64,000 bases of DNA from Fusobacterium ulcerans (lineage in GTDB: Bacteria; Fusobacteriota; Fusobacteriia; Fusobacteriales; Fusobacteriaceae), in the NCBI RefSeq assembly GCF_003019675.1, contig NZ_CP028105.1:884282-948281 (forward strand), in the 5' to 3' direction. The notes below the pieces were generated by a model. That model was not told the origin of the DNA. It ran no database searches and saw only the letters and a list, made by a program, of their open reading frames with translations. A program made the translations under genes and the position numbers. Below, piece by piece: positions 574 to 35,803 of this stretch (within the stretch, counting starts at the first letter, position 1; each line of letters starts with the position of its first letter).

Positions 574-1896
574 ATGAAAGAAAAAAAATCGTTAATAAGG
601 ACCATACTGAGGTATAGTATACCCTCTGTAATCTCTATGTGGATGTTCACTATTTATACTATGGTAGATGGTATCTTCATTGGAAAATATGTTGGTCCTT
701 TAGGTCTTGCAGGAGTAAATATTACTATGCCTCTTATCAATTTTACATTTGCCATTGGAATAATGATAGCTGTTGGAAGTTCAACAATGATAGCTATACA
801 TTTTGGTGAAGGTGACTGAACAGCTGGGAATAAAATATTTACTACAGCAACTTTGTCTTTGGCTGTCTTTGGAATAATCCTCTCTGTTCTTATAACAATA
901 TTTATAGAGCCTGTTATCCATTTTTTAGGTGGTGGTGGAGTATTATTCCCATATGTAAAAGATTATATGAGTGTTGTTATTTTATTCTGTACTTGTTATA
1001 TGGTTGGTTATGCTCTTGAAATATATATAAAAGTAGATGGCAATCCAGTGTATCCCGCTATTTGTGTTATGACTGGAGGTCTTATCAATATAGTTTTAGA
1101 TTATCTTTTTGTGGTAGTATATCCCTATGGGATAAAAGGAGCTGCTTTTGCTACTGGTATGTCACAGCTTACTTCTACTTCTATGCTTCTTTTTTACATA
1201 CTATTTAAAACTAAAAAAATAAAATTTGTAAAATTAAAATTCTCATTTAAAGAGTTATTGAAAATTTCCAAGGTAGGTTTTGCTGAATTTCTAGCAGAAG
1301 TTTCTACTGGTATTGCTATTTTTGTTTTTAATATTATTATTCTGAGAGAATTAGGAGAAAAGGGAGTATCCGCTTTTGGTATAATTGGATATATCTCATC
1401 CTTTGTTGTTATGACTATGATAGGATTCAGTCAAGGAATACAGCCTATTGTCAGTTTTAATCTAGGAGCAAAGAAATATGCCAATGTAATAAAAACATTA
1501 AAAATAAGTCTTTTGATGATAATTGCCACTGGAGTTGTTTTTTATGGAAGTATCAATTTCTTCTCCAATAAAATAATTTCTACTTTCTTAAATGATACTG
1601 AAACATTTAAGATGACTAAATACGCTCTTGCAGCTTACAGTTTTGCCTATATAATTACTGGACTGAATATAGTTACAGCTGGATATTTTACCGCTGTAAA
1701 AAAAGTTAAAATATCTACTATAATAACTATTTTAAGGGGAGTTGTTCTTATAATTGTCTTCCTTGAAATTCTTCCTAAAATATTTGGTACAGCAGGTATT
1801 TGGTGGTCTGTTCCTGCTGCTGAATTAGTAACCCTTGCTTCATCAATATACTTCATAAAAAAATATATCCATAAATATGAAGCTCTTAGAGTGTAA
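574..1896 (+). pseudogene. MATE family efflux pump interrupted by an in-frame TGA
   Basis: The reading frame from ATG 574 (preceded by AAGGAG at 560-565) matches a MATE multidrug/Na+ antiporter: the start region reads SVISMWMFTIYTMVDGIFIG, and many hydrophobic segments follow. A TGA at 817-819, codon 82, breaks it. Translation in the same frame continues to 1896, giving about 440 residues in total, the usual MATE length. The downstream part retains MATE-like features such as GFSQGIQPIVSFN. No good ribosome-binding site precedes the next possible start (TTG 853), so reinitiation looks unlikely. The gene is either a recent nonsense allele or carries a sequence error. It lies directly downstream of the MerR-type promoter. 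Confidence 0.8.
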
Positions 1897-2046: not shown

Positions 2047-2829
2047 ATGGTAAAACTGATTATTACAGATATGGATGGAACTTTGCTCGATGATAACAAT
2101 AATATAAATGAAGAGTTCTGGAATATTGAAAAAGAACTTAATAAGAAAGGGATCATCTTTGCTGCTGCAAGTGGAAGACAGTACTACAATCTTCTTCACA
2201 GATTTTCTCCTATTAAAGATGATATGCTTTTTATAGCTGAAAATGGTACTTATGTTATGTATAAAAATGAAGAGTTGTACATAAATACTATTCCTAAAGA
2301 GGAAGCTGTTGAACTTATAAATGCTTCCAGAGGAATAAAAGAAACACGTGTAGTTCTATGTGGAAAAAAATCTGCATATATAGAGCCTGGAAATGAAAAA
2401 TTTATGAATGAAGTTAATAAGTACTATACTGAATTAAAAATAGTTGATGATCTTACTAAAGTAGATGATGATATTTTAAAATTAGCTGTATGTGATTTCA
2501 TTGGTTCAGAAGAAAACAGCTATACTCATTATAAAAAATTTGAAGAAAGATATAAAGTAGTTATTTCAGGAAAAATATGGCTGGATTTAATGATGCCTGA
2601 TGCTAACAAGGGAAAAGCAGTAGAAATGATTCAGAAAAAACTTGGAATATCATATGATGAAACAATGGTATTTGGAGACTATTTAAATGATTTAGAAATG
2701 ATGTCTACAGGAAAATACAGTTTTGCCATGAAAAATGCTCATCCTCTTCTGAAAGAGCACTGCAATTTTACAGCTGAGAGCAATAATGATAATGGAGTAA
2801 TAAAAGCTATAAAAAAATATGTTTTATAA
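2047..2829 (+). CDS. Cof-type HAD-IIB family hydrolase
   Basis: This 260-residue protein is a haloacid-dehalogenase-like phosphatase of the Cof/YbiV type, which usually dephosphorylates sugar phosphates or flavin/PLP-type cofactors in the cytoplasm. Motif I, DMDGTLLDD (residues 8-16), supplies the nucleophilic Asp8 and acid/base Asp10. Motif II is around AASGRQY. The acidic motif IV is GDYLNDLEMM (from about residue 210). The cap domain sits between motifs II and III, as in class IIB. Length is normal. The start ATG follows GGAAAGG. It stands alone and a hairpin terminator follows. The substrate cannot be read from sequence. Confidence 0.9.
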   Translation: MVKLIITDMDGTLLDDNNNINEEFWNIEKELNKKGIIFAAASGRQYYNLLHRFSPIKDDMLFIAENGTYVMYKNEELYINTIPKEEAVELINASRGIKETRVVLCGKKSAYIEPGNEKFMNEVNKYYTELKIVDDLTKVDDDILKLAVCDFIGSEENSYTHYKKFEERYKVVISGKIWLDLMMPDANKGKAVEMIQKKLGISYDETMVFGDYLNDLEMMSTGKYSFAMKNAHPLLKEHCNFTAESNNDNGVIKAIKKYVL

Positions 2830-3048: not shown

Positions 3049-4227
3049 TTACTCTTTCTTTAAAAGTTTTTTATAACTATAATCTATTGCAAATGCCCCC
3101 AATGGAGCAGTTATTAATATAGAAAGAACTGCAACTGTCAAAGTGAGCTCTCCACAAGCAAACCCCATAGCCAGAGGTATTCCTCCAATAGCTGCCTGTA
3201 CTGTAGCCTTTGGAGTATATGCCATCATTGTAAAAGCTCTTTCTTTTGTATTGAGTCTGCTTCCTAGCAGACAGCAGAAAACTCCTGCCATTCTGAATAT
3301 CAGTACTCCCAGTATCAATATCACAGCCAGTAATCCTGCTGCAACAGCATATTTTATATCCACAGTTGCTCCGACTAATACAAAAAGAAGTATCTCCGCA
3401 GCCACCCATAGTTTTGAAAACTTTGCTGAAAGCCTTTTAGCAAGAACATCATAGTTTTTCAAAATACCTATTCCTATACTCATAACTGCTATCAAGGCAG
3501 AGAAAGGAACCTTTTCTCCTATTCTTTTTTCAAGTTCAAGAAGTAAAAATGACATACTCAACAAAATAACTACTTTCACAGAATCTCTCATATGAAACTT
3601 TTTAAAAAATTTCACTAAAATATATCCCACAATCAAACCAGTTATTATTCCAACTATTATTGAAACAGGGACATATACCAGTTTTACTGCTGACAGTCCT
3701 CCTCCTTTTTCAAATCCCAAAAATGAAGTAAATAATACAATAACAAATACATCATCTACAGAAGCTCCTGCCATTATAAGCTGAGGTATACTTTTTCCTG
3801 TTCCCCTTTTTTCCTCTATTAATTTCAGCATTCTGGGAACTACAACTGCTGGAGAGACTGCTGCTATTACGCTTCCTATTATGGCAGCTTCCAATACTGT
3901 TATTCCTAAAAGTTTAGGAGCTATAAGTACTGTTCCTGTTATCTCAAAGAGTGCTGGTAAAAAACACATAAGAAGAGCTGGTCTCCCTGCCCTCTTCAGA
4001 TCTTCTATATTCATTGCCAGCCCTGCTCTTGTAAGTATTATAACCAGAGCTAGCTGTCTAAGGCTTGGAGATATTGAAAGTATTGAATTGTCCAAAAGAT
4101 TTAAAGCATACGGTCCTAATATTATTCCAGTTAATATCATTCCTAAAAGAGCTGGAAGCTTCAGCTTGGTAAATAAAGCCCCTAATATTAATCCCAATAA
4201 AAATATAAATGCCAGACTTGTTAACAT
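3049..4227 (-). CDS. Cation:proton antiporter family (CPA2/Kef-like), under a fluoride riboswitch
   Basis: This is a roughly 392-residue polytopic membrane protein of the Na+/H+ exchanger fold. It has about 12 hydrophobic segments, a LPALLGMILTGIILGP segment near the N-terminus typical of Kef/NhaS3-like carriers, and acidic residues in membrane helices (ASVDDVF). No TrkA-N or other cytoplasmic regulatory domain is attached. I choose ATG 4227 because AAAGGAGG sits just upstream; an ATG at 4263 would fall inside the riboswitch terminator. The leader is a fluoride riboswitch, so the physiological job is probably fluoride tolerance, either by F-/H+ exchange or by ion balance during fluoride stress. 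Antiporter genes are known members of fluoride riboswitch regulons; the actual transported ion is inferred. Confidence 0.85.
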   Translation of the reverse strand: MLTSLAFIFLLGLILGALFTKLKLPALLGMILTGIILGPYALNLLDNSILSISPSLRQLALVIILTRAGLAMNIEDLKRAGRPALLMCFLPALFEITGTVLIAPKLLGITVLEAAIIGSVIAAVSPAVVVPRMLKLIEEKRGTGKSIPQLIMAGASVDDVFVIVLFTSFLGFEKGGGLSAVKLVYVPVSIIVGIITGLIVGYILVKFFKKFHMRDSVKVVILLSMSFLLLELEKRIGEKVPFSALIAVMSIGIGILKNYDVLAKRLSAKFSKLWVAAEILLFVLVGATVDIKYAVAAGLLAVILILGVLIFRMAGVFCCLLGSRLNTKERAFTMMAYTPKATVQAAIGGIPLAMGFACGELTLTVAVLSILITAPLGAFAIDYSYKKLLKKE

Positions 4228-4242
4228 TTTTCCTCCTTTAAT

Positions 4243-4288
4243 AAAAAAACTGATGATCTGCATAACAAAAAAATGCAGAAGTCATCAG
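4243..4288 (-). terminator. Riboswitch-controlled intrinsic terminator
   Basis: On the minus strand, CTGATGA-CT-TCTGCAT (4288-4273) pairs with ATGCAGATCATCAG (4263-4250), followed by seven T (4249-4243). The 5' arm includes the last conserved bases of the fluoride aptamer (CTGATGACTTCT). Aptamer folding and terminator folding therefore exclude each other, the layout of an ON switch. Confidence 0.85.
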
Positions 4289-4338
4289 CTTATAAGCGGT
4301 TTTTGTGTTGCCACAAAGGGAGAACCTCATTCCCAAAG
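4272..4338 (-). ncRNA. Fluoride riboswitch (crcB motif) aptamer
   Basis: Read on the minus strand, the leader contains the conserved pieces in order: GGGAATGAGGTTCTCCC, a short stem (GTGGCAACAC), AACCGC, then GCTGATGACTTCTGC. These match the known fluoride aptamer pattern (a hairpin with ATG..TTC, then AACCGC, then GCTGATGAC). The ligand assignment follows from the established family. No covariance search was run. Confidence 0.88.
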
Positions 4339-4355
4339 TATTAAATTTTCAATTT

Positions 4356-4384
4356 ATCCTATCACTTTTATTTGTTCTTGTCAA
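4356..4384 (-). promoter_or_regulatory. Promoter of the fluoride riboswitch transcript
   Basis: On the minus strand TTGACA (4384-4379) and TAGGAT (4361-4356) are spaced by 17 bp. Transcription would begin near 4349, a few bases before the aptamer. Confidence 0.75.
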
Positions 4385-4393
4385 CTATTCTTA

Positions 4394-5017
4394 TTACAAA
4401 GCCAGATGAGCTTGTAATATTCCCATAAGCCCACTGAAAAATATTCTTATTCCTATAGACATAATAAATATCTGCATCACCCTAGAAAGTATATATAGGA
4501 CAAGAGTTCCAACTATTTTCTCCAGATAATTTCCAATAATAAAAGTAATATATATAAATATAAAAGCTATTAAAATTGAAAAGCTTGTCATCATAACCCC
4601 TTTTTCTGCTTTAAGTATAAGGACAGTCGTCAGACTTCCAGGACCTACCATCATAGGAAAAGCCATTGGTATTACAGCTCTTTTTATCTGATCTTCTGGT
4701 GAAATTTCTTCAAGGGGGGTATTTTGTTTACCTGATGAAAAGATCAAATTTCTAAAAGCCATTACAACAAGAATCATTCCTCCTGCCATTTTCAATTCTT
4801 TCATATCTATTTTATAGAAATTTGTCATTAAAAATTCCCCTACCAGACTGAACAGCCACATTATAAAAAATCCTGTTACAGCAATAGTTTTAAAAAGTTT
4901 ATCCCTTGTTTCTTTTTCCATATTTGCCGTCATTCCTACAAAAAGAGGAACATTTCCAAATGGATTGAGCACTGCTATAAGCATTAAAGTTTCAGTAAAT
5001 ATCCCATAAATATTCAT
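4394..5017 (-). CDS. MarC family integral membrane protein
   Basis: This 207-residue membrane protein has about six hydrophobic segments. It shows MarC-family features: an N-terminal LNPFGNVPLFVGMT motif around residues 17-30, RNLIF, and a second-half repeat PMAFPMMVGPGSLTTVLIL. The length matches MarC proteins (200-220). Members sit in the inner membrane and their function is unsettled; the old link to multiple antibiotic resistance has not held. GGAGGAAGAGA precedes the ATG. The stop lies just upstream of the promoter for the antiporter gene, so the two genes appear to be transcribed separately in the same direction. Confidence 0.88.
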   Translation of the reverse strand: MNIYGIFTETLMLIAVLNPFGNVPLFVGMTANMEKETRDKLFKTIAVTGFFIMWLFSLVGEFLMTNFYKIDMKELKMAGGMILVVMAFRNLIFSSGKQNTPLEEISPEDQIKRAVIPMAFPMMVGPGSLTTVLILKAEKGVMMTSFSILIAFIFIYITFIIGNYLEKIVGTLVLYILSRVMQIFIMSIGIRIFFSGLMGILQAHLAL

Positions 5018-9375: not shown

Positions 9376-10770
9376 TTATTTAGTTGAGAACAATATTTTA
9401 TCTCCAACTTTTAATATTACATCTCCTCTTGGAGTTATATCTTCATCTCCACGTCTGATAGATATAATATGCATACTTTTTGGCAGCTGAAGATCCTTTA
9501 TTCTTTTATCCACATACTCTGAATGCTTGTCCAGATAAAGCTTCTTAATAGAGAGCTCTTCTAATTCTTCTAAATCTATTTCATTTGCTTTATCATCTAC
9601 TACATCTTCTACTAATCCAAGATATTTTGCAAGGGGCTTCAACGTCATTCCCTGTATCAATACTGAGAAAACAACCAGATAGAATACCATATTAAATATC
9701 CCCTGAGAATTATCTATTCCCGCTGTGATTGCTGTTGTAGAAAATATAATTGGCACAGCACCTTTCAGTCCTGCCCATGACATAAAGAATTTCTCCTTTT
9801 TACTGTAATTGAATGGTGCCATAAGGGAAAATACAACTGCTGTTCTGGCAACAATAGTTATCATTATTGCTAGAATACTTCCAGTTATCATAACCATTTT
9901 TAACTGGCTTGGAAAAACAAGAAGTCCAAGGATAATAAACATTGTTATCTGCATCAGCCATGAAGCTACTCTCATATTTCTGATAGTATTCATCCTGAAA
10001 TCAAATCTTTCATTTCCTACTATTATTCCCATAAGATATATTGCAAGGAATCCATTTCCTCCAATAAGGTTAGTTGCAGAAAAACATATAAATAACACTG
10101 CAATCATATGAATAGTAAGAAATTCTTCTCTCTCTATCCGAAGAAGTCTTCCCATTGGAAGTGTTATTTTACCAAATAATACTCCCATAAGAGCTCCTAC
10201 TATTATTTGCTGAATAAGGAACAGTATACTCATGAAGATATTTGAATCTCCAGCTTGAAACATAGATAGGACAAAGAGGATTAGTGCATATGCCATAGGG
10301 TCATTACTTCCTGATTCTATCTCTATTACTGTTCTTATTCTTTTCTTTAAATTGGAACCTCCCAGCATAGATATAACTGCTGCTGCATCTGTCGAAGAAA
10401 CTATTGCTCCAAAAAGAAAAGCTTCTTTCAGAGTAAAGTCTGTTATCATATATGCTGCAAAGGCTGCCAGTACTGCTGTAAGAAAAACTCCTGCTGTTGC
10501 TAATATACCACTGGGGTAAAGTGCCATCATGGCATCTGATTTTTTAGTTTCCAAAGCTCCTGCAAAAAGAATAAATAATAATGCAAAGTTCCCTATATTC
10601 TGAGTTAATCTTGCATCATCAAATTCAATTTTTCCAATTCCTTCTGAACCTGCTGCCATTCCTATAAAAAGGAACATTATCAGCAAAGGTACCTGTACTT
10701 TTTTCGTTACTCTTATTGAGAGTAAACTTATTAATAACAAAATTCCACATACTAAAATTTTATAATCCAT
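9376..10770 (-). CDS. Potassium/proton antiporter of the NhaP2 (CPA1) type
   Basis: This 464-residue protein has about 12 membrane segments followed by a C-terminal cytoplasmic TrkA-C (RCK_C) domain from about residue 400: KRIKDLQLPKSMHIISIRRGDEDITPRGDVILKVGDKILF. The membrane part shows CPA1 signatures: FLFIGMAAGSEG, the ion-site helix GAIVSSTDAAAV, and SWAGLKGAVPI. In characterised members (CvrA/NhaP2) the protein exchanges K+ or Na+ for H+ at the inner membrane, and the TrkA-C domain senses a nucleotide or K+. AAAGGAG precedes the ATG. It appears monocistronic, with a possible promoter (TTGTAT-17-TAAAAT) just upstream. Confidence 0.88.
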   Translation of the reverse strand: MDYKILVCGILLLISLLSIRVTKKVQVPLLIMFLFIGMAAGSEGIGKIEFDDARLTQNIGNFALLFILFAGALETKKSDAMMALYPSGILATAGVFLTAVLAAFAAYMITDFTLKEAFLFGAIVSSTDAAAVISMLGGSNLKKRIRTVIEIESGSNDPMAYALILFVLSMFQAGDSNIFMSILFLIQQIIVGALMGVLFGKITLPMGRLLRIEREEFLTIHMIAVLFICFSATNLIGGNGFLAIYLMGIIVGNERFDFRMNTIRNMRVASWLMQITMFIILGLLVFPSQLKMVMITGSILAIMITIVARTAVVFSLMAPFNYSKKEKFFMSWAGLKGAVPIIFSTTAITAGIDNSQGIFNMVFYLVVFSVLIQGMTLKPLAKYLGLVEDVVDDKANEIDLEELEELSIKKLYLDKHSEYVDKRIKDLQLPKSMHIISIRRGDEDITPRGDVILKVGDKILFSTK

Positions 10771-35220: not shown

Positions 35221-35285
35221 CGATATTCATCACAAAAAAATTAAAATAAGGCTACTATTAAAATTTTCCATTAGAAAAAAGACTC

Positions 35286-35458
35286 AACAGAAAGCACAAC
35301 ATTGGTTCCCCAATGACAGTTATACAGATGTTATCTGCATTCCAAAAATCAATTTGTCAGCCTCACAAAATCGAAATTTCGGCAATCTCCCCTTTCACTG
35401 TGTTTCATAGCTGGCTAGCTCCACATAGTTACTCTTGTTGATTGCTCCTCAATCTGTT
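35286..35458 (-). ncRNA. Lysine riboswitch (L box) of the lysC operon
   Basis: On the minus strand, AACAGA (35458-35453) and TCTGTT (35291-35286) close P1. Inside are conserved lysine-aptamer segments: GAGGAGC, GAGTAACTATG, GTGAAAGGGGAGATTGCCGAA, GAGGCTGACA, then TTGGGGAACCAA. The order and these strings match the L-box pattern. Lysine binding is expected to favour the downstream terminator. Confidence 0.9.
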
Positions 35459-35594
35459 TATTTATTTAAGTGAGATTTTACAACACAATTTAAAAATTTA
35501 ATAATTCAAAAAATATATATAAAGAGTATAAAAAATATATTATTATTTTTTCCTAAATTGCTATATACTTCTTTAAATATAACTTAAATAATTT

Positions 35595-35760
35595 GATAGA
35601 GGTGCAGAGAACATCAGTAAAAATACTTAGTCTGGCAAACTGTGAGGTATTTTGAAAGGGAACTTTGCCGAAATGAAGGTATCAAGCCCTGATATTTTTG
35701 TTGGCAGTATGGAAAATATTTATACTGTTGTCATTGATTTTTATCAATGGAGTGCTGTCT
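35595..35760 (+). ncRNA. Lysine riboswitch (L box) of the deacetylase gene
   Basis: GATAG (35595-35599) and CTGTC (35755-35759) close P1. Conserved blocks follow in order: AGAGGTGC, ATCAGTAA, GAAAGGGAACTTTGCCGAAATGAAGG (two pieces: GAAAGGGA and TTTGCCGAAATGAAGG), TTGTTGGCAGTATGG, TACTGTTGTCA and AATGGAGTGCTGTCT. This is a second, separate L box on the opposite strand from that of lysC. Confidence 0.9.
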
Positions 35761-35803
35761 GGAAATAGATTTTTTTTGATGCTTTTTGTTGTCAAAAATT
35801 TTT

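Follow-up and report, generated by a model that had tools for sequence, protein, structure and literature searches.

The window (the whole 64,000-nucleotide stretch of the Fusobacterium ulcerans genome that was analysed) carries a gene for a predicted NHA (SLC9B)-type antiporter, which stands alone behind a fluoride riboswitch and probably serves as fluoride defence on its own, not as a helper. The explanation as a whole, i.e. a single-gene, fluoride-induced defence operating through NHA2-like cation/proton exchange, is assigned a probability of roughly 0.48. The unit and its surroundings comprise the following features:

4356-4384, minus strand: predicted sigma-70-type promoter, TTGACA-17-TAGGAT with TG before the -10 element (consensus scan, 10 of 12 matches)
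4269-4343, minus strand: fluoride riboswitch aptamer RF01734 (47.4 bits; gathering score 34)
4243-4289, minus strand: intrinsic terminator (folding, sequence, conservation in relatives)
4231-4239, minus strand: ribosome binding site AAAGGAGGA (sequence)
3049-4227, minus strand: NHA (SLC9B)-type antiporter gene, 392 aa, PF00999 (ORF, Pfam, nearest solved relative NHA2, AlphaFold2 model)
4394-5017, minus strand: MarC-family membrane protein gene (PF01914, 120 bits)
2929-2968, no strand assigned: hairpin between an A-run and a T-run (-21.2 kcal/mol when folded as plus strand)
2047-2829, plus strand: HAD-type gene, convergent with the antiporter gene and named by sequence reading only

The leader has the anatomy that the earlier note had proposed, namely a promoter, a complete aptamer and a mutually exclusive terminator. 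The covariance search with RF01734 detected the aptamer with E 5e-10 within the window and E 7e-12 genome-wide, and this is the one fluoride riboswitch in the whole complete 3.54 Mb genome. Apart from a score over the curated threshold, the aptamer possesses the conserved core and the pseudoknot. In an alignment of 21 members of the phylum, 98.8% of the pseudoknot cells are paired, a value that none of 500 shuffles reached, and the pseudoknot covaries, reading GGAG/CUCC in some members and GAAG/CUUC in others. A covariance model of our own (R1) was set aside, as its RNAalifold structure lacked the pseudoknot. The promoter pair TTGACA/TAGGAT is retained in two relatives of the same genus; in the consensus scan, promoter-like patterns are no rarer in the surrounding region than expected by chance. 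The 3' arm of the aptamer (GCUGAUGACUUCUGCAU, 4289-4273) is reused as 5' arm of the terminator, whose 3' arm (AUGCAGAUCAUCAG, 4263-4250) is followed by U7 at 4249-4243. Since this arm is common to both structures, terminator and folded aptamer are mutually exclusive, and the arrangement predicts fluoride-driven transcription antitermination. By itself, the terminator hairpin folds at -18.8 kcal/mol, and the entire leader fold has a z-score of -3.4, its stability exceeding that of all 200 shuffles. The antiporter gene starts with the ATG at 4227, 42 nt past the aptamer end and with GGAGG immediately upstream. An alternative start at ATG 4263 (404 aa) was rejected, because it is located inside the terminator and a strong ribosome binding site precedes 4227.

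The riboswitch unit consists of this single gene. The MarC-family gene located upstream ends 9 nt before the promoter and presumably does not belong to the unit. HAD genes are known partners of fluoride riboswitches; however, an operon of antiporter and HAD-type gene is ruled out by the convergent orientation of the latter, and the hairpin at 2929-2968 likely serves as terminator common to both genes. A second Na_H_Exchanger protein is encoded in the window at 9376-10770 (minus strand); it carries a TrkA_C domain, matches a K+/H+ antiporter equivalog (484 bits) and has no fluoride riboswitch. Elsewhere in the window, a MATE-like multidrug exporter, recognized by reading only, is split over the adjacent ORFs 565-819 and 853-1896 (plus strand) and is possibly a frameshifted gene, and a divergent pair of lysine riboswitches is located at 35284-35460 (minus strand, 84.3 bits) and 35589-35765 (plus strand, 122.6 bits), with 128 bases between them.

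The antiporter had been described as a Kef-like, CPA2-type protein without regulatory domains. The latter part holds: Na_H_Exchanger (PF00999, 148 bits) is the sole Pfam domain of the 392-aa protein, and an RCK/TrkA (RCK/KTN) regulatory domain was absent from the Pfam result. The Kef-like identity was rejected, as no C-terminal RCK/KTN domain is present and the CPA2 subfamily model TIGR00932 yields 46 bits, far under its cut-off of 238. The CPA2/Kef label also proved too loose, since a profile built from 78 relatives identifies NHA2/SLC9B2 as nearest solved relative (E 6e-57, compared to 9e-15 for MjNhaP1). An AlphaFold2 model of the antiporter (mean pLDDT 88.5) superimposes on MjNhaP1 with Z 46.0, on PaNhaP with Z 43, on NapA with Z 40.1 and on NHA2 with Z 38.6 (31% identity), and NHA2 takes the top rank in Foldseek. 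Eight residues are invariant across 158 homologues (E95, S125, D158, D159, R312, K340, T342 and Q344), of which E95, D158, D159, R312 and K340 align with E215, D278, D279, R432 and K460 of NHA2, while T342 aligns with the Thr that follows K460. Thus, the DD motif, the Glu-Arg pair (E214/E215 and R431/R432) and the Lys and Thr at the TM12 break that mark NHA/SLC9B members are all found, and by these residues the protein is classed with NHA/SLC9B. Work on NHA2 assigns Na+ binding to the aspartates, finds function severely impaired when the Glu, Arg or Lys is replaced with alanine, and considers the Glu to be specific to NHA2 members (PMC8850199, PMC9174904).

The genome of this gut-type bacterium lacks the known fluoride exporters. 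PF02537, i.e. Fluc/CrcB, has no match in the complete 3.54 Mb genome, and the single CLC protein encoded there carries GSGIP, GREGP and GGIFLP, the published CLC-F signatures being GNNLI/GMGLI, GREGT/V and GEVTP (PMC11139923). As judged by these signatures, which are absent from it, the sole CLC of the complete genome is of the chloride type and not of the fluoride type. The antiporter itself matches PF00999 only and belongs to neither Fluc/CrcB nor CLC-F. The suggestion that it is the sole visible fluoride gene hence extends to the entire genome, which has one riboswitch, no crcB and no CLC-F signatures.

Fluoride riboswitches upstream of Na+/H+ antiporters are already known (PMC11139923, PMC11477304), and the linkage is widely retained. 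Among 98 Fusobacteriota genomes we counted 50 riboswitches and 52 antiporters, with 42 of the 50 riboswitches located 38-79 nt upstream of an antiporter-family gene; others include riboswitches before CLC-F (G002, G053, G087, G090) or CrcB (G057). For the 10 antiporters of the phylum without riboswitch match, a permissive Rfam search finds none upstream either; its match in locus L100 belongs to a CLC-F gene. In the window's genus, where the antiporters fall on three branches of the tree with differing neighbourhoods, 11 of 12 genomes have the riboswitch. A scan of GTDB species yielded at least 580 relatives of the antiporter. The 79 closest readable ones (57-67% identity) come from Clostridia, Brachyspira, Bacteroidota, Fibrobacter and other taxa, and in 61 of these the 3' motif of the aptamer is present within 350 nt upstream; because the upstream pattern search overlooks weakly matching aptamers, 'none' labels in the tree represent an upper bound. 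An Rfam riboswitch match was obtained in 43 of 50 tested genomes of close relatives. Altogether, about three quarters of the close relatives retain the riboswitch directly upstream. Four IMG/VR viral contigs (L295-L298) encode a relative over most of the protein (54-59% identity), which is either carried as cargo or belongs to host DNA included in the prophage calls. A 5'-truncated relative is present on the Klebsiella pneumoniae plasmid NZ_CP095654.1 (L299:8016-8564) and on many of 794 PLSDB plasmids, spanning query residues 206-392 (~60% identity) or, in some plasmids, 311-392 only. It adjoins rmtB in both of the enterobacterial multiresistance plasmids inspected and, as the half with the DD site is missing, looks like a relic riding with the rmtB segment.

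A tree divides the antiporters into subfamily 1, which includes the window protein (at least 42% identity), and subfamily 2 (35-40%), and these differ in their relation to known exporters; CLC-F proteins were called by GREG[TSV] plus GEVT. Within the 98 Fusobacteriota genomes, 39 encode only the antiporter, 28 only CrcB or CLC-F, 13 both and 18 none (Fisher p 5e-4, shared ancestry ignored), and CrcB and CLC-F never occur together (0/98). The effect is strongest for subfamily 1: CrcB or CLC-F is found in 1 of 28 genomes carrying it versus 28 of 46 antiporter-less genomes (p 3e-7, shared ancestry ignored), and in 12 of 24 genomes with subfamily 2. Among 393 clostridial genomes drawn evenly from one class, CrcB is present in 84, the antiporter in 66 and both in 2, both of these with subfamily 2; none of the 62 subfamily-1 genomes has CrcB, as compared to 84 of the 331 others (Fisher p 1e-7, ancestry ignored). 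Thus, subfamily 1 avoids the known exporters and subfamily 2 co-occurs with them freely. In 50 genomes of close relatives, CrcB over cut-off was found in 3, a clear CLC-F in 4, a CLC with GREGA/GEIVP in 18 and none of these in 25. The GREGA/GEIVP type of Clostridia (L239-L256) scores ~340-400 bits with the CLC-F profile and lies outside the published signatures; it was kept out of the CLC-F count and may yet move fluoride. A clean exporter swap within a genus is seen in g21 (G068-G080), where 7 of 13 near-complete genomes have CrcB, 6 have CLC-F (L104, L109, L110, L112, L114, L124), none has both and none has the antiporter. It is very improbable that the exclusion simply reflects common ancestry or overlooked exporters and is as such uninformative on function. 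The genomes are related, and the GREGA-type CLCs in antiporter genomes speak for this possibility. However, the pattern recurs in two phyla, in one case in a sample drawn evenly from its class, the antiporter gene moves between lineages, and the swaps inside genera g11 and g25 (G047/G048; G087/G088/G090), together with the three antiporter branches in the window's genus, argue against ancestry alone.

According to the reading that we prefer, in the absence of fluoride the leader would fold the terminator and transcription would end before the gene. Cytoplasmic fluoride would bind the aptamer, which would then hold its 3' arm, so that no terminator is formed and the NHA-type antiporter is made. 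This protein would act as main fluoride-resistance transporter, replacing Fluc or CLC-F. Working as NHA2 does, by proton-coupled exchange in which Na+ (or another cation) leaves the cell and H+ enters it, the antiporter would reduce the pH difference by which HF is trapped as F-. The switching, the resistance conferred, the substrate and the transport direction are all predictions from the features described above. Since the ion site is unchanged relative to NHA2, cation/proton exchange is at least as likely as export, and the observation that fluoride acclimation of yeast goes along with tolerance of lower internal pH (PMC11139923) fits this chemistry. Against cation exchange it must be said that a collapsed pH difference gives at best equal fluoride inside and outside, and that exclusion this complete is more like that of Fluc versus CLC-F, which are two true exporters, than like what a pH device would be expected to show. 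The stand-alone role under this reading would also be weakened if the GREGA/GEIVP CLCs in 18 of the 50 relatives' genomes move fluoride.

Exchange is favoured by the ion site but export by the exclusion pattern, and it is conceivable, if somewhat doubtful, that the antiporter itself exports F- as an F-/H+ exchanger with NHA fold and forms a third bacterial class beside Fluc and CLC-F. In that case proton transport would fall to the aspartates, and the region of R312 and K340 would help to hold the anion. Such a role would account for the near-complete exclusion with CrcB in the clostridial class and with CrcB/CLC-F in Fusobacteriota, contrasting with the free co-occurrence of subfamily 2, and for the antiporter being the only riboswitch gene of its genome; moreover, the funnel of NHA2 is not strongly negatively charged as it is in other exchangers (PMC8850199). 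A weak precedent is provided by a fly NHA reported as H+-Cl- cotransporter (PMC9174904, PMC9644288), but the same reviews call this result only "proposed" or "possible", and the human paralogue has no residue change favouring chloride. The tested residues of the cation site are all identical to those of Na+/Li+-binding NHA2. No report of a fluoride transport or anion assay of bacterial members was found in the open-licence papers searched. As to the earlier note's idea of another type of fluoride exporter, a stand-alone defence role is made likely by the lack of known exporters and the exclusion in two phyla, whereas export itself does not follow, exchange being at least as likely with the Na+/H+ site intact. 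An accessory role, in which a Na+/H+ antiporter repairs cytoplasmic pH and the exporter is encoded elsewhere in the genome or is not needed, appears unlikely for the window protein. Na+/H+ antiporters are the second commonest class linked to the riboswitch and have been read in terms of pH homeostasis (PMC11139923), and C. difficile has a CLC-type and a NhaP-type gene behind one riboswitch (PMC11477304). A helper is expected alongside exporters; subfamily 2, accompanied by exporters in half of its Fusobacteriota genomes, fits this expectation, but subfamily 1, including the window protein, does not, which argues for a stand-alone role of subfamily 1. In addition, uninterrupted proton cycling by HF would require that F- is exported too, and it is in such cells that subfamily 1 is missing.

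The association of riboswitch and antiporter is thus not new. The placement in NHA/SLC9B, the division into one subfamily that stands alone and another that co-occurs with exporters, and the avoidance of Fluc and CLC-F by the antiporters were not found in the open-licence papers searched. A 2024 review counts two fluoride exporters in bacteria and lists Fusobacteria with the groups that have members lacking them (PMC11139923). If the NHA antiporter works alone, fluoride resistance has been overlooked in a large part of gut anaerobes; protection against fluoride would then require no more than a cation antiporter, or else a halide can be carried by the exchanger fold seen in human NHA2. Should export be true, subfamily 1 would explain resistance in many exporter-less Fusobacteriota, Clostridia and Brachyspira.

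Among known systems, the mammalian Na+(Li+)/H+ exchanger NHA2/SLC9B2 (7b4l, 7p1i) is closest, with 31-32% identity over the whole length and in common the PKATVQAAIG motif, the DD pair, the E-R pair and the Lys and Thr at the TM12 break. The 13-TM members have an arginine at this break and NHA2 a lysine (PMC8850199), and the window family sides with NHA2. Unlike NHA2, the bacterial protein starts ~113 residues later, without the N-terminal extension, and its gene is under a fluoride riboswitch. MjNhaP1, PaNhaP and NapA share the fold (Z 46, 43 and 40) at only 16-22% identity. The NhaP-type CD0657 of C. difficile (PMC11477304), compared by gene arrangement, is likewise an antiporter gene under a fluoride riboswitch; however, it is located in an operon behind a CLC-type gene, whereas the window gene stands alone in a genome without known exporter. 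The CLC-F F-/H+ antiporters are controlled by the same riboswitch class and are also proton-coupled, but represent an unrelated family (Voltage_CLC as opposed to PF00999). Fluc/CrcB channels, again an unrelated family and absent from this genome, are linked to the same riboswitch class as well, and the exclusion pattern suggests that the antiporter fills the same genomic role.
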